From a virus, in IMG/VR virus record IMGVR_UViG_3300009086_000125, positions 1 to 20,453 of that record: 20,453 nt of DNA; one strand, given 5' to 3'. A program made the position numbers and the translations under genes. Each line of letters starts with the position of its first letter. Positions within the stretch are counted from its first letter, which is position 1. Positions 1 to 17,433 of the stretch are shown here, in pieces. The notes beneath the pieces were generated by a model, which worked only from the letters and a program-made list of their open reading frames with translations, searched no databases and was not told the origin of the DNA.

Positions 1-3000
1 ATATGTTCCAGAGTTTACAGCCTTCATTTTATCTAGTCCAAAGTTCTGTACTGCATACTTACGCATTACGAACTCTCCTGGAGTAAGCATTGCTGGAACT
101 GTGTCTGTGCCCCTGGCAAATCCCCCAGCTGCAAAATATTTTGGAACCATTCCACCAGATGATAACGGTATTGAATACTTTTGACCTGGGTATATCAGGT
201 TGGGGTTGCTACCAATAATAGACTTATTGGCATTATAGATCTTCTTCCACTGTGAGGCAGAACCATAAAACTTTTTGGCAATTCCAGATAGCGTATCGCC
301 ACTCTTTACGGTATATGTTTTTGTAGTAGGCTCTGCAGCTTCTGGTGCTGGGGTCTGCGTAGGCGTTTCTGCTGGAGTTGGCTCAGTCGGTGTAACTGCT
401 TCTGTAGTGTTGTCACTAAGTATCTTATCTGCATCAACAGTGATAGAGGCAGATCCATCTTCACCTATAGTTAGGTCTACGCCTTCGATGGCATTAAATG
501 CATCTATGAGTGACTGCTTATATGCATCAGTTTTTGTTATAGCTGCATCTATGTTACCCTCAATAAGTGACCATGCTGTTGCACTCTTGCCAAGATAGTC
601 TAGCTCTTCAATCCGAAGGTCTCTGGCTTCCTCTGCAATCGTAAGCAATCTTTGATTTGGTTCTATCCTTGACTCTTCAATTTCGGCAATGTTTTTGGTT
701 AAAGTTTCAATTTCTGATTCTATCTCTTTTTTGGTTAGAGTCTTTTCTATCTGCTTTCCAGTCTCCTCATCCCATACTTTGAATGTAATCTTTAGGCTTT
801 CTAGTTCTGCCTTGCGAGCCTTCTCTAGGTTTGTTGACTGTGCATCTCTTGCTCTCTCAGCCCGAAGCTTTCTCTCTTCCCTCTGTGCCTTTGCTGCTGC
901 TGCTAGGTCACCAGAAGCAAGAGCATCTGCTACATCTAGCTGTGCCCTTGATTGCTCGACTAGTGCCTGGTTTGACTCGTAGATACTGTCTAAAGCTTCC
1001 TGCCTTTGATCATACTTATCATTTATCTTTGACTCTTCTTCAGAGATTAAAGATAGTCCGTACTGGTAGTCATCTAGAACTACCTGGTCTTTTGCAATTT
1101 CTTGCTGAGCTAGCTTAATTGCATCTAATGTGTCCTGGTTATCTGCGGTAAACTGTAACTGTATTGCATTTTCCTGAGAACTAAAATAACCCTGAATCTT
1201 ACTAAACTGTTCCTTTAAGTATGAGGTTCTGCCCTCTGGCGTTGATAGCTTTAACTCTAGAGACTTTTTCTCAAGTACGTCAAAGTCTTTTACCAACTGC
1301 TGGACTTCTTCTGAGCTTGCAGCGGTTGCAATACTAAATGCTAGCTGAGCATCCTGTGCCACTTCAAAGGCGTCTGCCAAAGACATTCCTGCGGCACGAA
1401 GCTTTGTGATAGCCTTAAACTGCATATTTACATCTGACAACCCCTGCCTTAACGAAAGCTGGAAGTCTCCAATAGTTACTTCAGAGAATGCCTTGGCCAT
1501 AGCTTTTCCAGCTGAGGTTACCTTGACAACCCCATCATTAATCGATACAAAAGTTTTTCTGGTTTCTTCATCTAGACCATTGATGTAATCAATGAACTCT
1601 CTGCCATAGCCAGCTGAAACAAGCTTTTGGTCAAAGCCCTTAAAAATTTCAATGTTCTTAGTTCCTCCAAGAACCCTCTTCAATTCTCCTACTCCACCAG
1701 CTGCATTGATTGCTGCATCTCTAACCTGCTTTAGTCTAGTAAGAATGCTCTCAAATGGGTCTTGCTTTTGTGAGCCGTTGGAAGGTGTTGGTGATGGATC
1801 AGTTTCTTCTGTCCCGCCAACATTTTGCTGTTTGCCCTTTTGGACTTCGTATGCAGCTGCTTGATCAGAGTACTCTCTCATAAGGTAAGCTTGGTCATAC
1901 TTCTCTAGCTCATAGCCCCTTCCTGTGGCTAATAGATATCTTTGCACAGAATTCCAGTCTCCAGTTGCTACGAAGTCTACGAAGACTGAAGCGGAACCAA
2001 TCATTCCCTCTCCGAACAAAGTATCCCAGTTGTCAATTATAGCTTGTAGGCTTGGATCTTGCAAATCTTTGTTAAAATTAACCAAGAAGTCTTTAGACAT
2101 TGTCTCTGGCATACCTTGAATCAGCTTGACCATGTCTGTAACTTCTTGAAGGGTGTTTGTGTTTGATGACGCAGTTAAATCAATATTAATGCCATACTCT
2201 TTATTCATATTGGCTATTTGAGACAATGCCTCTACTTTGTTTTCATAGTCTTCGTCTGTATCGAATTGAGCTGACAGAGAGAACTCTTGAAGATATGTGG
2301 ACATTCCAGCTTCATCAAGACCTGACTTTATAAGTAGGTCCATCAACTGGCCGCCTGCAGCTGTCCCCTTTTCTTCTACAATTAAATCAAATTTTCTTTT
2401 AACAGATGCGTCCGTCTTGTCTAAACCAAGAAGCATGTTTACGGCATCAATGCTGAGATCTTTCGATGCGAAAGAAAGCTGCAAGGTTGTGTAGAATTCA
2501 GTGTCATCTCCAGCACTAAAGGCTTCGGATGCGGCATCATTAAGTCTTGATACTGCATCTTCTGCAAATACTCGTAACGGATTGTCCTCTTCATATCCAG
2601 ATAATACCGATGACTTTATAGCATCGCCAAATACCTTGGAGTCAAACTCATCCTTATAGCCAACAATGACGTCTAATGACTTTGAATTAGCTGCTAGCAG
2701 GGCATCAGTATCTCTTTTTCTATCAGCTATTAGAGAGTTTAGTTCATTTTCTAGCTTAGTTCTTTTTTCAACATCTGAGGTTGCAGTAATTTGGTTCTTT
2801 AAATCATCTTCTCTAGTTTGGTATTGAGAGTTTAGAGAATCTAAGAGTTGTTGGTTCTGCTGTACCTGATTTATTCCAAGAGCTATTGCTGCTGATTGCA
2901 ACTCTGCAGTTTGTCTAGTTTTTTCCAAAATAAATTCTGGGTCAAGGTCTGATATGTCAGAGTTATCTGCACCAATTGCAAAGCCAAACCCATCTGCTGC

Positions 3001-6000
3001 CCAACCTTCTAGTCCTGCTACAAAGCCATCCCAGCCACCTCTTGCATAGGCAATGTCTCTATCTACGGCGTCTTGAATTCTCTTGCCAGAAATTGCATCT
3101 TTGATTTTACCCGACAATGCTTCTGGATCAGTCGCTAGAGCTACAGTATCTGATAGACTTTCTAAGGATTGTTGTTGGATTTCTAGCATTACCCTGAGAG
3201 GATTGTTTATTAGGTCTGTGCCATTTGGACCAGTAATGCTAATTACCGTGGCTGCCACATCTGCAGCAAAGCTGTAGTCATTTAGCTCTGTGCCTATGGC
3301 AGATGCAATACTTGCTGCCTCTCCAGATGTTAAAATGCCCTCTGCCAATCCAACAGAAAGCTGTCGGCCAATCGCTGCTGCTGCGTCTGACTTTGAAAGA
3401 CCCTGGGAGATTAGAGTGTCTATGTCTCCTAGCAGGTTTTGCCCCGCCTCTGATTCTAAGTATGTTTGACCATATTTTCTTTGTGCGTTTGTATCTCCAG
3501 CTAGCTGGTCTTCTTGCTCTCTTCTTCTGGACTCTGTAGCTGATACACGGCCAGTTGCCTCTGACATAGCTATTAGCTTTGAGGTGTTCATAGTTAAGGC
3601 GTCGCCAAACTTCTTGCCGTCCTCCCTAGCCTTATTCATCATCTCATTATATTTCATGAATGCGAATACTCCTAGCCCAACTACTGCCACTAGAGCAGCT
3701 ATTGGTGCACTAAGAGATAACAAAATCGGACCAATCATTGCAAGTCCGCTTGCAATTGGAACTATAGACTGAGCAATCTCTCCAACTTGACCACCCATAC
3801 CAGATGCAACACCAGCACCCATTGCAACCATTCCTGCCAAACCAGCAACCCTGCCTGCACGAGATACACGCTTTTGAGCTTTAGATTGCTTTGTTAGCTT
3901 TTTGTATGCCTCTCCAGTCATTGGAGTTCCGTCTGGATTGGTTACTACATTTCCGTCTTTATCATAAGCTAAAGGCTGTGTTCCTGGAACATCCGTTCCA
4001 ACCTCAGCAACCTGCTGTCGCTGATTTGCAAGCTCTCTCTTACTTCTATCTAGCTGTGTTTCTCCAGCTATATCTGCAATACCATCCATGCCAGCATTTT
4101 TACGCATAGTGTCTGCAAGAATACCGCCATACTTTGTCTTACCCAGAGCACCGTCCATAAGAGAGGTTTCAATCTTTCCTACGATCTTGCCACCGATGCC
4201 TGAAAGCTTTCTCTTTGCTGTTCCGCCAATAGATAGGTCAGCGTCAGACAGCCCGTCTACAATATTATTTTGCATTGATGGCAGCCCCATCCTTGCTGCT
4301 GCTTCATCTGAAATACCGCCAGAAGGAGCTGTAGGTGAGGTTGGGATTGTTGGTGGGCCATAACCGTTCGAGGAATTTAGGCCAGCATCGAAGTTGATCT
4401 TATACTCTCTAGCATCATCTGCACCATCGGGACCAGACAATGGATGAGGACTGTTACGGTCTCTAGCATACATGTATGGATCTTCAGATTTTGCCTCTAC
4501 CTGTCTTCCAAATTCTTTTGCGTACAGGTCTGCGTCTGTGGTGGCATCCGCTACTGGCTGAACAGATGGGCCATTCAACTTATCTAATGATCTTGTTCCT
4601 GTTTCAAAGGTTCCGCCTGGAACAACATGTTTGCCAGCACCTACCGTAAAACTATTTGTCCTAAGCTTACCAGACGACTTGGTCCTTGCGACTGCGATGT
4701 CGGTGCCCGTAGCAAAAACTTGAGGCCTACCAGCGGTTTGCCTTAATTCTCCCTCTCCAGATGCTACTATGTCCTCGTAAAATGCTTCTGCAGAACCTGC
4801 AACCTTTCCAGCTGATGTCTTTATATTTTGAACACCGACTTGACGTGCAGTAACTGGCATAGAAGATCGTGCCTTCATTCCAGCAGCCACGTCCTGCCTT
4901 GCTTCATTTCCAGATGTAGCAAACTCGTTTATAACTGTGTTGGTCACATCTGCCATTAGCTGATCTAGCCAACCAGTGACTGATTTATCAATGTTTCCGT
5001 TGTCTATAGCACTTGCTATTCTTTGACCAATCTCAACATCTAGCTGTGATACTGCAGCATCAATTGCTGCACCAGAGCCCATCTGTCCTGCTGCCTGTGC
5101 CCTAGAAGAAACATTCTTAAACCCCTCTCCAGAGTTCTTGTCCCACTCAGAGGTGAACTCCTGTGAAGACATTCCAGTGCCTCTGGCTTTTTGATTTAGG
5201 GTTGTGGATTTTGTTGCGGTTAAGTCAGACAGGACTATGGTTGCTTCTAGCAGTCTGTCTGAGAATGTAGAAATTCTTGGGAATATTTTATCTAACTCGG
5301 CTAGAATTGCTGGAGTTTTTGCCATTGGCATTGACATGTGCGTCTCTTGCATACCAGGGGTTCCCTTTGCAAACCCAGGAATGTTGTCAGAGATGATCCC
5401 CTGAATTAATGGACCATATTTTTTTGCCCTATCTGTAGGAATAACAGCTTCTCCAGGAGAAAGCATGGCTGGCACTATATCTCCAGCACCCTTTGGACCA
5501 GGAACGCTAAATATACCACTAGCTAGCTTTAAGGGGTTTCCCTTTGGATCTACAAGCCCAGTGGTCCTACCCATTGTCCTGCCAGTTGCAGATGAAATAT
5601 TGTATGAGCTAGCGGCTGCGTTTGCTGCCTGATATGCCCCTACAAGATTATAAAGTGCTCCTGCTTCAGAAGTAAATATTTGAGCTAGCTGAGCATGTGT
5701 CTGACCCAAAGATCCTGCAACAGCAGCAGCCTCTAGCTGTTCTTGTGTCATGTAGCCTAGCTCCATTGACACTCCAGAGGATGCACCAGACAAAGAAAGC
5801 ATTACGCTTCTTACAACACCAAAACCTTTTATTAGGTTCGCTACACCGTTAGCTAGTAGACCAAAAGTCATTAGCGCTACTGGGGCAATAAGTCCTAGTA
5901 CAGCAATTGCTCCAATAACAAATTGCTTGACTCCAGCATCCATATTGTTAAATTGCTTTAGCAGCCCATTAGCAAACTCAATGATAGGGGTTATTAGCTT

Positions 6001-7551
6001 TATGAATTCTTGGCCCAGTGGAACCAGAGATGCCTTTATGTCTTCTAGTGACTTTTGGAACTTGTAGGCTGGCGAATCTTCTACACGCTTTAGCTCTCTC
6101 TCGGAGAGGATTGCTAGCTCTGCTGCGGTTGCCCTTGAAAGATCTAGAACTCTTTGTGCCTGAGTACCCTCGGCAATAACGTTCTGGAACAATGTTGAGA
6201 TACGGGAGAACTGGAACTTTCCAAACAACTGTTCGATGGCTTGGGCTCTATTTAGTGGATCTAGCTTGTCTAGAGCCTGGGCAAAGCCAATAACTGTTCC
6301 CTTAAGATCTCCAGCATTAGCCTCTACGAGACCCTTGACATTTATGCCAAAACTTGCAAGCATGTCAGAGGACTGCTTAGTAGGATTAATAAGTGAAGCA
6401 AGACCAGACTTTAGCGCATTGGCACCCTCGGAAGCATTAATGCCACCTTCACGCATGGCGGTCAGGAAGTATGCTAGATCTTCTACGTCTCCACCAAGCT
6501 GCTTTACAACAGGACCAGCCTTTGGAATAGCAATGGTCAAGTCTTCGATTGCTGTAACTGTTTGGTTTTCTACAGCGTTTAGGAAGTCTATCTTAGATGC
6601 TAGCTCTTCTGTGGAAACTCCAAAAGCATTTGTTAGAGAGATTGAGGTCTTTAGGGCTTCGGACTGTTCTACCCCACCAAGAACAGCAAGCCTTGTTGCT
6701 TCTACAACCTGGGCAGTAAGAGCTGCACCCATCTGACCCATTGCAGCGGCTTCGGCTGCCAGATCCATGGTGTCTTTAACTGCAATGCCATACTTGGTGA
6801 ACTCAGAAGCTAGTCTTTGGATACTATCCACCATCTTGTCAGTTTCTGCTGCTGTGGTGTTTAGCTCCCCGTAGACCCTCTTAAACTTTATTACTGCATC
6901 TTCCATCTCCATGAATGCTTTGCCAGCAGTGGATGCCATAATAGAAAGTGGTAGGGTGAAACCAACCATAAGCTGGCGACCAGCCCACTGGGTGTTTTTA
7001 CCAAAGTTTAGAAGATTTGTAGAACCTTGCTTTAAGAGCTGATTAAAAACTTGCTGCTTTTGAGCAGCCATTTGCATCTGGGTTCCCAGATTGTTCATAT
7101 CAAGGGATAGGGGCCTTACCTTGATTGCTTCAATTGCTCCGTTGGCATCCCGACCCATTTTTATATATTGGGTCTGAATGGTCTTTACCCGTTCACGAGC
7201 AACTTTGTCAATTGTATTAAATTCATTTTTGAACATGCTACTAAAGCTTTTAGTAGATGCCATACCGTACTTAAAGTACTGGCCCATTGAAAGCTTATTT
7301 TTTTCCAGGGACTCTGTGAATGAGTCTGCTGTACTTTTTACATTACTTAAGCTTGCAGAAAATTGTTTTGTAGAGTTTATAGAATTTATTAAATTCTTAG
7401 ACATGTTGTCTGACATAGCAGCATTTGCTGCACTACCAGACGTTCTTAAGGACTGATGAAAGGCCGATATCTGACTTTGTAGGGCTTTGATTGACGCCAA
7501 CGCACTGGACGTATCAATATTAATCCCAATATTGGTTTCAATATCAGCCAT
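1..7551 (-). CDS. Tape measure protein, giant, C-terminus beyond the window
   Basis: Sets tail length and is ejected ahead of DNA. I translated the frame from ATG 7551 to base 1 (2517 codons); spot checks near 5040, 4440, 3660, 1980 and 1020 found it in phase. Start: [16 protein letters not shown] at the N-terminus, preceded by GAGGT 8 bases upstream. Residues about 185-465 resemble the TP901-type tape measure core ([32 protein letters not shown]). Hydrophobic helices lie near 540-580 and 1265-1300. Long charged helical stretches occur near 1540-1620 and 2135-2340. A LysM domain spans about 2411-2462, and the motif VPAMLxPGE occurs twice. At about 1.5 angstrom per residue, 2517 residues imply a tail of at least about 375 nm if mostly helical. 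It follows the two chaperone genes, as expected. No peptidase or lytic transglycosylase motif was recognised in the visible part. Confidence 0.96.
52..108 (-). other. Second VPAMLxPGE motif of the tape measure protein
   Basis: Residues about 2482-2500 contain [19 protein letters not shown], preceded by [16 protein letters not shown]. This is the usual C-terminal tape measure motif (glycine-rich, then D-x-(I/V)-PAML-x-PGE-(F/Y)-V). It follows the LysM domain directly. The copy near residue 690 is about 1790 residues upstream, so the motif is duplicated within one protein. Confidence 0.75.
166..321 (-). other. LysM peptidoglycan-binding domain inside the tape measure protein
   Basis: Residues about 2411-2462 of the tape measure read [20 protein letters not shown], then an [10 protein letters not shown] helix and an [14 protein letters not shown] end. 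This is a full LysM signature: YxVxxGDTLxxIA start, NxxxI middle and GQxLxIP-like end. LysM modules bind N-acetylglucosamine-containing glycans. A proline, threonine and glutamate-rich linker ([20 protein letters not shown]) sits immediately before it, as is common for LysM modules tethered to a larger protein. The likely role, by inference, is to anchor the ejected tape measure tip in host peptidoglycan. Confidence 0.93.
5428..5484 (-). other. First VPAMLxPGE motif of the tape measure protein
   Basis: Residues about 690-708 read [19 protein letters not shown], followed by [21 protein letters not shown]. Glycine-rich sequence plus D-x-(I/V)-PAML-x-PGE is a recurrent motif of phage tape measure proteins, normally seen towards the C-terminus. 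Here it sits in the first third of the protein, just after the first hydrophobic region. Its exact function is not known to me. Confidence 0.7.
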
Positions 7552-7574: not shown

Positions 7575-7898
7575 CTATTTGCCCAAGTTACCTACCACGG
7601 AGCTATCCGACATCTTAATGCCAGAGGCTTCCTCTACAATCTTATAGACTGTTGGTAGGTCGATGTTGTCTTCCAACGCTTTGATGTCTCCAGCTAGCTC
7701 TGGCTTGTACTGCTCCATAGCAATCTGAACACACTCCATTAGAAGATTCATTGACTTGTCATTATCATCAGCTACTGCTGCGATGCCCTCGAACTTCTTC
7801 ATAAATGAGCGAAGTAAGGAAATCTTTAGTGGACGAACTGTAAGCTCGGTTCCATCAATTAGCTTGATGCTTTGTGATTCATTGACTGTTGTAGCCAT
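7575..7898 (-). CDS. Short tail assembly chaperone, paralogue of the upstream gene
   Basis: A 107-residue protein located between the long chaperone and the tape measure gene. It matches the first ~95 residues of that chaperone: both share LIDGTEL near residue 13, PLKI-x-x-LR-x-FM-x-KFE near 23-37, and LPT-x-YKI-x-x-x-A-x-GIK near 81-95. This corresponds to the N-terminal (gpG-like) domain of tail assembly chaperones, which coat the tape measure before tube polymerisation. It ends at GNLGK-stop with no C-terminal extension. The start follows AGAGG with a 5-base gap after GAGG, and an extended -10 lies upstream. Only 23 bases separate its stop from the tape measure ATG, so a frameshift extension like lambda gpGT would have to run into the tape measure gene. 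Function is inferred from homology to its neighbour and from position. Confidence 0.85.
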   Translation of the reverse strand: MATTVNESQSIKLIDGTELTVRPLKISLLRSFMKKFEGIAAVADDNDKSMNLLMECVQIAMEQYKPELAGDIKALEDNIDLPTVYKIVEEASGIKMSDSSVVGNLGK

Positions 7899-7934
7899 CT
7901 ATTCCTCTTCTCTATAACCAATATGGTCTTATTA

Positions 7935-7943
7935 ATTATACCA
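7935..7943 (-). promoter_or_regulatory. Extended -10 promoter for the short chaperone and tape measure
   Basis: The minus strand reads TGG-TATAAT in the 56-base gap between the two chaperone genes. The TGn extension is perfect. The hexamer at 17-base spacing upstream is AAGCAA, not a -35 consensus. The predicted start is near 7928, giving a leader of about 30 nt that includes the AGAGG ribosome site. Confidence 0.6.
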
Positions 7944-7954
7944 CAAAGGGGATT

Positions 7955-8650
7955 CTATTGCTTGGTCAAATCAGTGTAATCTAGGCCCAAACCTATGCCA
8001 AATCCAGATTGTTGAGCCTTATAGCCTTGGAATGAAGTGATGTCATTAGGGTCATTGGTCTTACCGCCACTAAATACCCTGGCCTTCATCTCTTCCCAAG
8101 CATTTGCATTGCTGTTACCAGTCTTTTCGTCTAAGTCTATACCCTGAATCGCTGCCAAGAATTTTTTCTGCTGATAGTCAGCTTCGTTTTGACTCTCCAG
8201 TATTGCTATTAGCTCAGGCATGGACAGTGAGGTTTCTAGCTCCTCGTAGTCTTTCCAGATACCCAGCAAAAAAGCACGGCTTTCAAGCTTAGCAAGATCC
8301 AGTGTTTCCCAGGAAGATCCGCTCTGCGTTGCCTGCTCTTTTACGCCCTCATCATTTTTATCAGCATCTACTTTTATTCCAGCTGCAACATCAAGTATCT
8401 TATATATGGTTGGGAGGTTTACACTGTCTTCTAGATCATCTATTGTTTTTATTGATGGATAGTACTGCTTCATCGCTACCCTGGCACACTCTGCTAGAGC
8501 AGACACCGCTTCTTCATCTCCAGATGCTTTTTTTACATCTTCAAACTTTTCCATAAACTCACGAAGGTATCTAATCTTAAGCGGAGTAAGATATAGCTCT
8601 GTTCCGTCTATTAGTTCTATGATTCCAGTGTCGTATATTTTACTTGCCAT
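7955..8650 (-). CDS. Long tail assembly chaperone in a single uninterrupted frame
   Basis: A 231-residue protein. Residues 1-95 form the N-terminal chaperone domain (IIELIDGTEL, LTPLKIRYLREFMEKFE, LPTIYKILDVAAGIK). Residues ~113-231 form the extension that other phages usually add by programmed frameshifting: LESRAFLLGIWKDYEELETS, then SMPELIAILESQNEADYQQ and KFLAAIQGIDLD, ending in a glycine-rich tail. Such proteins bridge the tape measure and the tail tube subunit. Here both parts lie in one continuous frame. No Shine-Dalgarno precedes the ATG. Instead a TGG-TATACT element places the predicted transcription start on the A of the ATG, suggesting leaderless expression. It is separated from the major tail gene by a strong terminator. 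Lies in the canonical position upstream of the tape measure. Confidence 0.9.
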   Translation of the reverse strand: MASKIYDTGIIELIDGTELYLTPLKIRYLREFMEKFEDVKKASGDEEAVSALAECARVAMKQYYPSIKTIDDLEDSVNLPTIYKILDVAAGIKVDADKNDEGVKEQATQSGSSWETLDLAKLESRAFLLGIWKDYEELETSLSMPELIAILESQNEADYQQKKFLAAIQGIDLDEKTGNSNANAWEEMKARVFSGGKTNDPNDITSFQGYKAQQSGFGIGLGLDYTDLTKQ

Positions 8651-8656
8651 CTTACA

Positions 8657-8665
8657 AGTATACCA
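8657..8665 (-). promoter_or_regulatory. Extended -10 promoter giving a probably leaderless chaperone mRNA
   Basis: The minus strand reads TGG-TATACT-TTGTAAG-ATG. Counting the last hexamer base as -7, +1 falls at 8650 or one base before it, on the start codon. There is no ribosome-binding site between promoter and ATG. The first T of TGG is also the last T of the preceding terminator's U-tract, so the two elements share a base. The -35 region would lie inside the terminator stem. Confidence 0.6.
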
Positions 8666-8702
8666 AAAATAAAACTGCCCCGACCGAAGCCAGGGCAGTT
8701 TT
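8665..8702 (-). terminator. Strong intrinsic terminator after the major tail protein gene
   Basis: The arms AAAACTGCCC (8671-8680) and GGGCAGTTTT (8693-8702) pair perfectly. On the minus strand the inner TGGC and GTCG also pair (two wobbles) around a UUCG loop closed by C-G, giving a 14-bp stem capped by a cUUCGg tetraloop. TTTT-A-TTTTT follows. The plus strand also has a T-run, so it could work in both directions. It lies 27 bases after the major tail stop codon. Confidence 0.92.
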
Positions 8703-8729: not shown

Positions 8730-9395
8730 TTAGACAGCAGCGGCTGGGATTACTCGGTCTACGATCTTACCGTATGAACCAGAAGAATCTGGTAGTAGAC
8801 GGAAAGAAACCTCGAACATTGTAGCCTCGTCACGCTTAGCGGATACGGTTACGTTCTCGATTGATAGAGCACGGTAAGCAGTGTAGATACGCTCAATGCT
8901 TGAGCCAGCCTCACAGTCACCCGTACCAGGACCAACTGCAACAAGACCACGCTCAACTGGACACTCACCTAGGTTACCAGATGCAAGGTTAAGAGAGGCT
9001 GAGCCTGTTCCTAGTCCTGTAACACCAGTAATAGCCTCGTCCCAGTCAGCTGTGTTACCAGCGATGGCTAGAAGTAGGTTCTCTAGAGTTGCCTCAGCGA
9101 AAGCTGTGTTCATGTTTACGGTCATACCCTGCTTGTATAGCTTTGCAGCGTCAAGTACCTGGTCAACCTGTACCTCACCGAAGTCAGGCTGGAAGACTAG
9201 TTCTAGACCGTTCATTGTGTAACCAACGTTACGATATCCTGCACCGAGTGTTTCATCGGTCAGGGTTTCACGGTAGGATGTGCCGTCTGTTGAATAATCT
9301 GGAAGATCCGTTGCTGGATCAATAGCTCCAGAGTATGCAAATAGAGCAGCTGCACCAACGATGATCTGTGCTGAATCACCACGTGTATATGCCAT
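8730..9395 (-). CDS. Major tail protein (tail tube subunit)
   Basis: A 221-residue protein beginning MAYTRGDSAQIIVGAAALFAYSG, typical of siphovirus tube proteins in which an N-terminal strand precedes a compact beta fold. It contains GYTMNGLELVFQPDFGEVQVDQ near residues 58-80 and an ALSIENVTVSAKRDEATMFEVSFRLLPD strand region near 172-200, and ends DRVIPAAAV. Its place between tail terminator and tail chaperones is that of lambda V-type proteins. The start has a strong site (GAGGTG, 7 bases from ATG) and a TATACT element upstream. A strong terminator follows. Both fit a highly expressed product. Base composition is noticeably richer in G and C than in neighbouring genes, as is often seen for abundant phage proteins. 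Assignment rests mainly on position and fold style. Confidence 0.88.
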   Translation of the reverse strand: MAYTRGDSAQIIVGAAALFAYSGAIDPATDLPDYSTDGTSYRETLTDETLGAGYRNVGYTMNGLELVFQPDFGEVQVDQVLDAAKLYKQGMTVNMNTAFAEATLENLLLAIAGNTADWDEAITGVTGLGTGSASLNLASGNLGECPVERGLVAVGPGTGDCEAGSSIERIYTAYRALSIENVTVSAKRDEATMFEVSFRLLPDSSGSYGKIVDRVIPAAAV

Positions 9396-12303: not shown

Positions 12304-12762
12304 TTATAGAGCCTTTATCTCGTCTTCAGTTGCTTCTCGAACGTATTCAAGTGTTAGCCACTGGTCTGCTTCCTCTCTCGAAACAATGTGGTAGCCTCTA
12401 GAGAGACGTCCAACGCCCTCCCAGTATGCATTCTTTGTTGAGAACACTGCTACCTTTTCTGAGCTTAGCTTTGGTGTTGCCTTTGGCTTTGGCTCCTCTT
12501 TCTTAGGAGCTGTAGGCTTTGATGCAGCAGGCTTAGCTTCTGGGGCTGGAGCCTCTTCCAGCTTTTCCTCTACAGCAGCATCCTCTACTGGACGAGCAAA
12601 TTCTGTTCCATCCTGAACGATACCATCGCCATCCCCATCCCTTGCGTCTGGGTTAAAACCTTCTGGCAGGTCTGTTGCTGGACGCTCAAACTTTGTTCCG
12701 TCCTGGACCACGCCGTCTCCATCGCCATCTGTGGCTTCTGGGTTAAATACTTCTCTTGCCAT
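12304..12762 (-). CDS. Small DGDGDG-repeat protein behind the capsid gene
   Basis: A 152-residue acidic protein. Two units of 30-residue period each hold FNP-(E/D)-A-x-x-DGDGDG-(V/I)-VQDGT-x-F-x-RP (residues 6-28 and 36-58). The loop D-x-D-x-DG-x-x-x-D resembles the calcium-binding loops of dockerin or thrombospondin type 3 repeats. A proline, alanine and lysine-rich linker (71-98) leads to a compact C-terminal domain (~103-152) with VAVFSTKNAYWEGVGRLSRG, YHIVSREEADQWLTLEYV, then REATEDEIKAL. I recall similar C-terminal segments in actinophage proteins encoded next to the capsid gene, but cannot verify this here. Starts with a perfect AGGAGG 6 bases before ATG. It may decorate the capsid, but no function is proven. 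Confidence 0.8.
   Translation of the reverse strand: MAREVFNPEATDGDGDGVVQDGTKFERPATDLPEGFNPDARDGDGDGIVQDGTEFARPVEDAAVEEKLEEAPAPEAKPAASKPTAPKKEEPKPKATPKLSSEKVAVFSTKNAYWEGVGRLSRGYHIVSREEADQWLTLEYVREATEDEIKAL
12589..12747 (-). repeat. Two tandem calcium-loop repeats with 90-base period
   Basis: Units at 12679-12747 and 12589-12657 encode the two DGDGDG loops. The marker TCTGGGTTAAA-type sequence (plus strand GGTTAAA at 12651 and 12741) recurs exactly 90 bases apart. Synonymous positions differ between units (for example GTTCCATCCTGAAC against GTTCCGTCCTGGAC), so the duplication is old and protein-level selected. Confidence 0.85.
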
Positions 12763-14631: not shown

Positions 14632-15384
14632 AGGATCTTCCTCCTTTGTCATCTTAGCAAGATTCATGCCTTTAGCACTATCAACTAAGAACTTTATCAT
14701 TTCTATTTTTTCGTCATCATTTTTTTCAACGAAACCTATGTTCTTCATTTGATCTCCAGATGAAGGGCTAACTGCTGAGTCTTCCTCAGAAAGCAGTACT
14801 AGGCCAGTCTGGTCATCCCAGAACACATTCTCTAGTGTAGTTTCGTCTCCCTTGACGACATCTACACCGTCTACCTTTTCGATAGACATGATGTTTGCAA
14901 ACTGATTAGCTGGAGTGTCTACTAGAGAAAGCTCTACTAAGTCGTATTCTTTGATAACACGAACTGACTTGTCCATCTTCTCGTCATAGGCGTCGTCCCA
15001 CTTGTTCATTCTACCGCCAATAGAAAAGCCCTGGAGAGTTCCATCCATAACCTTTTCCCATGTGTCCTGTGCACCCTTTGAAACGTATGCAGAAACATAA
15101 ACTCCTGCATAAAACTTCTTGGTGTCTGGATCAAAGTACTTGTCTTCTTTGAATGAAACCATCTTTCCGACGGCTAGTGGCTGGTGCATTTCTCGAATGT
15201 TACCACGGAACTTAGCAAAAGCCTTCATGCTTGCATCTGCAGTGACGATGTCATCCTGCTTATCTACGTTATCGAGTGTAGCAAATCCTGAGACGATACG
15301 CCTCTCTTTGTCAACCTTACTGAACGGCATTGAGAGACGGAGGTTGTCCCCGTCTGAACTCCATTGTGCCTTAGATATAGTCAT
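14023..15384 (-). CDS. Prohead protease fused to a C-terminal scaffold
   Basis: A 453-residue protein between portal and capsid genes. Residues ~1-165 match the phage prohead serine protease type (XkdF / S78-like): VSGFATLDNVDKQDDIV (31-47), EMHQPLAVGK (65-74), GTLQGFSIGGR (115-125), then VELSLVDTPANQ (150-161). H67 and S121 are the likely catalytic pair, with E151 or D156 as candidates for the third residue. Residues ~250-345 are extremely acidic and alanine-rich, and ~345-420 form heptad-like coiled coil (LTAVVKSLNDEIAELKKSI). The end SLWGGRFLKTADLFN is probably the capsid-contacting tip. Protease and scaffold are usual partners in prohead assembly. The -10 upstream leaves only about 3 nt of leader before the ATG, with AGGG the only possible ribosome site. 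Confidence 0.88.
   Translation of the reverse strand: MTISKAQWSSDGDNLRLSMPFSKVDKERRIVSGFATLDNVDKQDDIVTADASMKAFAKFRGNIREMHQPLAVGKMVSFKEDKYFDPDTKKFYAGVYVSAYVSKGAQDTWEKVMDGTLQGFSIGGRMNKWDDAYDEKMDKSVRVIKEYDLVELSLVDTPANQFANIMSIEKVDGVDVVKGDETTLENVFWDDQTGLVLLSEEDSAVSPSSGDQMKNIGFVEKNDDEKIEMIKFLVDSAKGMNLAKMTKEEDPMNETTNEEIVEKSDDVVAEAQVAPEADAVAEAVEKADDADVAKTDDMDEDEMEEKADDAETEEKSEDMKEEDKSYDEKSDSVDATEEVSKSDDVTAVVTDLKDGIASAFSDLTAVVKSLNDEIAELKKSIDGNASDIKSVKEDLVSAKSDFNEFGKRFEAVEADTAFRKSGDLGEIVQESEPEQVQKSLWGGRFLKTADLFN
14640..14647 (-). promoter_or_regulatory. Internal Shine-Dalgarno site inside the protease gene
   Basis: The minus strand reads AAAGGAGG, then AAGATCCT, then ATG. It is a near-perfect anti-SD match in the codons for TKEEDP, whose amino acids are not otherwise constrained to this sequence. 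It sets the start of the nested scaffold product at 14631. Confidence 0.75.
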
Positions 15385-17426: not shown

Positions 17427-17433
17427 AACCACT

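Follow-up and report, generated by a model that had tools for sequence, protein, structure and literature searches.

In most long-tailed phages, ribosome slippage on one gene yields two helper proteins for tail building. In the locus described here, a complete long form and a separate short form are encoded side by side, and the question is whether these two genes have taken the place of the slippage. The analysed window, a stretch of 20,453 nucleotides from the IMG/VR record IMGVR_UViG_3300009086_000125, represents the structural module of a tailed phage, encoded entirely on the minus strand: portal, maturation protease, major capsid, connector and tail genes. The order of the genes of interest is major tail protein – LONG – SHORT – tape measure, in agreement with annotated Streptomyces phages. 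In our reading, to which a probability of about 0.8 is assigned, two genes have taken over from a programmed -1 frameshift that was lost; SHORT would be the ancestral G and LONG its diverged, in-frame GT duplicate.

The LONG open reading frame (7955..8650, minus strand; 231 aa, ATG start) encodes a GT-type tail assembly chaperone, complete and in a single frame, as stated in the preliminary description, and is composed of a G-like domain (residues ~1-96), a linker and a T-like domain (residues ~110-231). SHORT (7575..7898, minus strand; 107 aa, ATG start) begins 56 nt after the LONG stop codon and is a separate G-type paralogue possessing the G-like domain only; at the gene level, the G domain is thus common to both, and the C-terminal domain is restricted to LONG. 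Upstream of LONG lies the major tail protein gene (8730..9395, minus strand; phrog_2175, E 2e-31), whose homologues are annotated as major tail proteins and whose product is the presumed partner of the T-like domain. Downstream, the tape measure gene (1..7551, minus strand) starts with the ATG at 7551, 23 nt after the SHORT stop codon, and comprises at least 2517 codons, the reading frame being open at the contig end; it is syntenic in the Streptomyces phages, and its product is the presumed client of both chaperones. The C-terminal part of this frame contains a LysM-like stretch close to the end of its readable portion. Elsewhere in the window, positions 12304-12762 encode a small protein in which two similar DGDGDG-VQDG repeats precede a linker rich in Pro, Ala and Lys.

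The paralogy of the two proteins is evident from the alignment of SHORT to residues 1-94 of LONG (46% identity, E 1e-27) and from their common family, phrog_10504, matched by the LONG N-terminal domain with E 3e-22 and by SHORT with E 4e-21. The C-terminal domain of LONG belongs to another family (phrog_10474, E 1e-14); since the two halves match different families, they are suggested to be separate reading frames in other phages. The LONG alignment covers both open reading frames of the Streptomyces frameshift chaperones, and tblastn revealed homology to annotated tail assembly chaperones of Streptomyces and Rhodococcus phages, with E values down to 1e-31. A Pfam search with LONG and SHORT matched no family. 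The structure of LONG was modelled from an alignment (mean pLDDT 79, above 90 across most of the G-like domain), this model replacing a poor single-sequence prediction with a mean pLDDT of 40. Among predicted viral proteins the model had two unnamed matches (E 2e-14 and 5e-8), and its similarity to named tail assembly chaperones, including the GT of N15, was weak (E 1e-3 or weaker). A Foldseek search of the model against the PDB gave nothing significant and matched no solved structure, a result that counts against the two-gene reading.

The start signals of both genes are characteristic. An intrinsic terminator (8671..8702, minus strand), formed by a 14-pair stem followed by ATTTTT, is located between the major tail protein gene and LONG. 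It is succeeded by a -10 element, TATACT (8657..8662, minus strand), placed exactly 6 nt upstream of the LONG ATG and predicting a leaderless start. SHORT is preceded by the -10 element TG-G-TATAAT (7935..7940, minus strand), which is a part of its own promoter, TGGTATAAT, and by a Shine-Dalgarno site, AGAGGA (7903..7908, minus strand). Leaderless messages are common in mycobacteria. Two other genes of the window look similar in this respect: the maturation protease gene (start at 15384), with TATAAT 9 nt ahead of its ATG, and a gene called from a GTG at 17432, where TATACT lies some 7 nt ahead of an in-frame ATG two codons further on (17432-17424), which may be the true start.

The same signals were found throughout the related loci. 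A -10 element (TANA[AC]T) stands 5-9 nt before the ATG in all 184 distinct LONG upstream regions, none of which has a Shine-Dalgarno match of at least 4 nt, whereas such a match is present in 199 of the 200 distinct SHORT upstream regions. A stricter -10 pattern, applied initially, had missed 42 LONG genes using TAGAAT or TAAAAT, and the wider one covers all of them; for comparison, a stricter pattern than the wider one occurs at that spacing in 5% of shuffled LONG upstream regions. SHORT also has a -10 match in 159/159 upstream regions, mostly 24-38 nt before the ATG. These start features are kept far above chance expectation, and a leaderless LONG with a leadered SHORT appears, on sequence features, to be a near-universal contrast in the pair clade. 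The LONG message is predicted to be leaderless from the promoter spacing and from the lack of a Shine-Dalgarno match in 184/184 regions. The preliminary description had spoken of a leaderless look of the long form and of a promoter and a ribosome site proper to SHORT, and the sequence features fit all of these. The terminator, which it did not mention, has counterparts as well: the region upstream of LONG folds with a mean z of -6.4, and 120/120 regions lie below -2. The gap between LONG and SHORT shows no terminator-like fold (mean z -0.5); the LONG transcript therefore probably continues into SHORT.

A search for other phages with this gene pair, as proposed in the preliminary description, returned 223 distinct IMG/VR loci with LONG in one frame followed by SHORT, and where LONG stands by itself, the locus is truncated by the end of the contig. 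The same picture emerged when the capsid gene served as anchor in a search neutral to architecture: all 44 loci spanning the region carry the pair, and 0 the frameshift form. Both genes are under strong purifying selection, with dN/dS values of 0.080 for LONG and 0.088 for SHORT (the latter over 341 pairs). Degradation or absence of SHORT in close relatives, which had been named as an outcome that would speak against the proposal, was thus not found; a single contig (L219) has a frame-breaking indel in this gene, and an apparent third form in L303 proved to be an indel next to a contig end. In L315, a methyltransferase-like gene (2267-2896) is inserted between LONG and an intact SHORT. The WhiB protein is a marker of actinobacteria and their phages. 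Its gene was detected in 12/12 large pair contigs, which points to actinobacterial hosts, and a control search gave a WhiB signal in Corynebacterium only; the pair phages probably infect actinobacteria.

At the sequence level, no frameshift extension of SHORT, the other outcome named as speaking against the proposal, was found. No pair locus has a second C-terminal or T-like domain downstream of SHORT, and the open extension past its stop codon has a median of 13 nt; together with the 23 nt left before the tape measure gene in the window, this agrees with the earlier claim that there is no room for an extension of the short gene. LONG is a single open frame, and its junction has a GGGAAAY or CCCAAAY heptamer in 0 of 178 cases. 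An in-frame, mostly A-rich heptamer occurs in 30 of these 178 junctions, by chance or otherwise, and this counts against the replacement of frameshifting by two genes. Near the SHORT end of L050 (4995) and L051 (5023) a GGGAAAC is found in frame, either a relic or a chance occurrence, and no T-like domain follows it in either locus. The relative frame of LONG and SHORT is spread over the three registers (63/60/44), which indicates no frame coupling, and the gap between them has a median of 50 nt, from 26 nt upward. Judged from sequence, the pair is a G/GT chaperone system from which the frameshift is missing.

Relatives that bear the frameshift, not mentioned in the preliminary description, were found among both cultured and uncultured phages. 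The 127 cultured Streptomyces phage records have one G copy, followed by T, and in the regions that were read T lies in another frame than G. In these cultured relatives the heptamer at which the T frame opens is CCCAAAT, CCCGGAA or GGGAAAA, in a -1 relation; some of the Streptomyces phages, such as Sham, have the chaperone annotated as a joined gene, an annotation shared by NiceHouse and Francesca, two Rhodococcus phages that are more distant. For close uncultured relatives, the frameshift form was recovered as well, in a search that used the major tail protein as its anchor and was blind to the chaperone type. All 57 distinct uncultured frameshift loci contain an in-frame GGGAAAY or CCCAAAY heptamer (GGGAAAC in 30, CCCAAAC in 18, CCCAAAT in 8 and GGGAAAT in 1) with G and T in a -1 relation, and their G genes carry a Shine-Dalgarno site in 57/57 cases, as SHORT does. 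A scan of genome contigs yielded a single match and no prophage or host. The matching contig (L253, CAINGU010000031.1) has a frameshift-form locus with CCCAAAC and is binned as an uncultured cyanobacterium MAG; it is possibly a phage contig in the wrong bin.

Two trees bear on the origin of the pair. In the G-domain tree, SHORT and the frameshift-form G form one clade (support 98/95) with SHORT nested inside, and LONG stands apart as a clade with a long stem (99/97). Since SHORT groups with the frameshift-form G, it is best read as the ancestral G, the LONG domain being the diverged one; this descent of SHORT is a further addition to the preliminary description. The AU test did not reject a LONG+SHORT clade (p 0.31): the two may be sisters, the duplication could be placed at more than one time, and this counts against the two-gene reading. 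In the tape-measure tree, the frameshift forms branch at the base. A single clade (100/100) contains every pair genome, together with one frameshift lineage (L324 and relatives). On this tree, as sequence evidence goes, the frameshift is the ancestral state, and the pair probably arose once. The frameshift cassette of the lineage inside the pair clade was apparently imported by recombination. The tape measure of L423, a member of this group, is closest to those of pair phages (62%, vs 44-47% to those of other CCCAAAC-type phages), and its major tail protein is closest to that of the frameshift phage L438 (80%, vs 57% to that of a pair phage); this mismatch fits the import of a block comprising the major tail protein and chaperone genes, and not a re-invention of the frameshift. 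L423-L434 and L324 are apparent natural recombinants, combining a tape measure of the pair type with a block of major tail protein and frameshift chaperone genes from another lineage.

The function of chaperone could also rest on LONG alone, with a shorter form arising through A-rich slippage or internal starts, and with SHORT in another role, e.g., the regulation or inhibition of tail assembly. The A-rich or similar in-frame heptamers in 30/178 LONG junctions would suit this explanation, as would the identity of just 46% between SHORT and the LONG N-terminal domain. However, these heptamers are not conserved, and the diverged domain is that of LONG, SHORT being the one that groups with the G of the frameshift relatives and retains their leadered start type. 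As SHORT is moreover present in every intact pair locus and under purifying selection, we regard a chaperone made by LONG alone as unlikely.

That LONG and SHORT constitute one coupled unit, in which read-through, reinitiation or a shift from LONG leads to SHORT, could be suspected from their close spacing, but it is disfavoured by the spread over three registers and by gaps from 26 nt upward; SHORT is equipped with a promoter and a ribosome site of its own, and the methyltransferase-like gene of L315 separates the two. Such coupling is very improbable. It is harder still to believe that SHORT is a functionless, decaying leftover of a duplication: the indel of L219 breaks it in one contig, but its low dN/dS, its occurrence in 223 distinct loci and its nearly invariant Shine-Dalgarno site contradict decay. 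The preferred reading remains that of two genes in place of a frameshift; with regard to the preliminary description, the observation is confirmed, the interpretation is supported, and the account was largely right.

Compared to known systems, the pair occupies the same site as G/GT of phage lambda, between the major tail protein and the tape measure, and consists likewise of a short G-like and a longer T-extended form; lambda, however, makes both from one locus by slippage, whereas the pair consists of two diverged paralogues with no conserved slippery site. The nearest cultured relatives are the Streptomyces phages of Stanwilliamsviridae (Samistivirus, Faustvirus, Gilsonvirus and others; ~35-45% identity). 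They share the homologous G and T domains and the gene order, but each of their genomes has a single G, with no second paralogue, and T lies in the -1 frame behind CCCAAAT or CCCGGAA. An evident frameshift has also been reported as lacking in some EA subclusters of Microbacterium phages, where two open reading frames are apparently expressed separately; a full GT with a G paralogue was not reported there (PMC7302621). A laboratory mutant of TP901-1 has a permanent in-frame G-T fusion resembling LONG; it lacks a separate G, in contrast to the pair phages, which keep SHORT as a free G, and producing the fusion only, it forms non-infectious particles (PMC4493119). An annotation survey lists many genomes without an annotated frameshift (PMC10885494). 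We found no account of a GT gene accompanied by a distinct G paralogue in the open-access literature searched; one may exist in subscription papers.

From these features we infer the function of the pair, its transcripts and its G:GT ratio. In lambda, G binds the tape measure and T recruits the tail tube protein, and a balance of G and GT is needed, their ratio of about 30:1 being crucial (PMC5009743). With its G-like and T-like parts fused in one frame, LONG would make a GT-type protein only. The natural pair combines such a fusion with a separately kept G, so the simplest explanation is that SHORT gives G, LONG gives GT and the start signals set the ratio. The LONG message, transcribed from its own promoter directly after the terminator, would be leaderless and weakly initiated. 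A transcript running on from LONG into SHORT would hold G messages at no less than the number of GT messages, and with its own promoter and strong ribosome site SHORT would be the better initiated gene, bringing G into excess over GT. The ratio formerly set by frameshifting would thereby probably be set by a leaderless GT gene of low output and the better-initiated G gene behind it, with G coating the tape measure and the T-like domain of GT recruiting the tail tube protein, as in lambda. In Mycobacterium smegmatis, leaderless reporters yield less protein than leadered ones, although not always via lower translation efficiency (PMC7148126); the similar translation efficiency of leaderless and leadered messages in some mycobacterial comparisons counts against this explanation.

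Few uses of recoding in phages are as conserved as the tail-chaperone frameshift, and laboratory disruption has so far been the main way of testing whether the frameshift itself or only the protein ratio is needed. The pair would represent a natural, ancient and widespread replacement of the frameshift, and would indicate that duplication can stand in for programmed frameshifting in evolution. The close relatives that keep the frameshift, and the recombinant lineage between them and the pair phages, make the question directly testable; in two-gene constructs G and GT could be varied independently. For annotation, the pair is a warning against taking every two adjacent chaperone genes for a frameshift pair. 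For the phages themselves, it appears fairly likely that in a large uncultured clade, probably of actinobacteria, duplication has replaced frameshifting and passed the control of the G:GT ratio to the type of promoter and start site, with a leaderless GT and a Shine-Dalgarno-led G. The two G domains would then be free to specialise, and the imported cassette suggests that the two solutions may be interchangeable.
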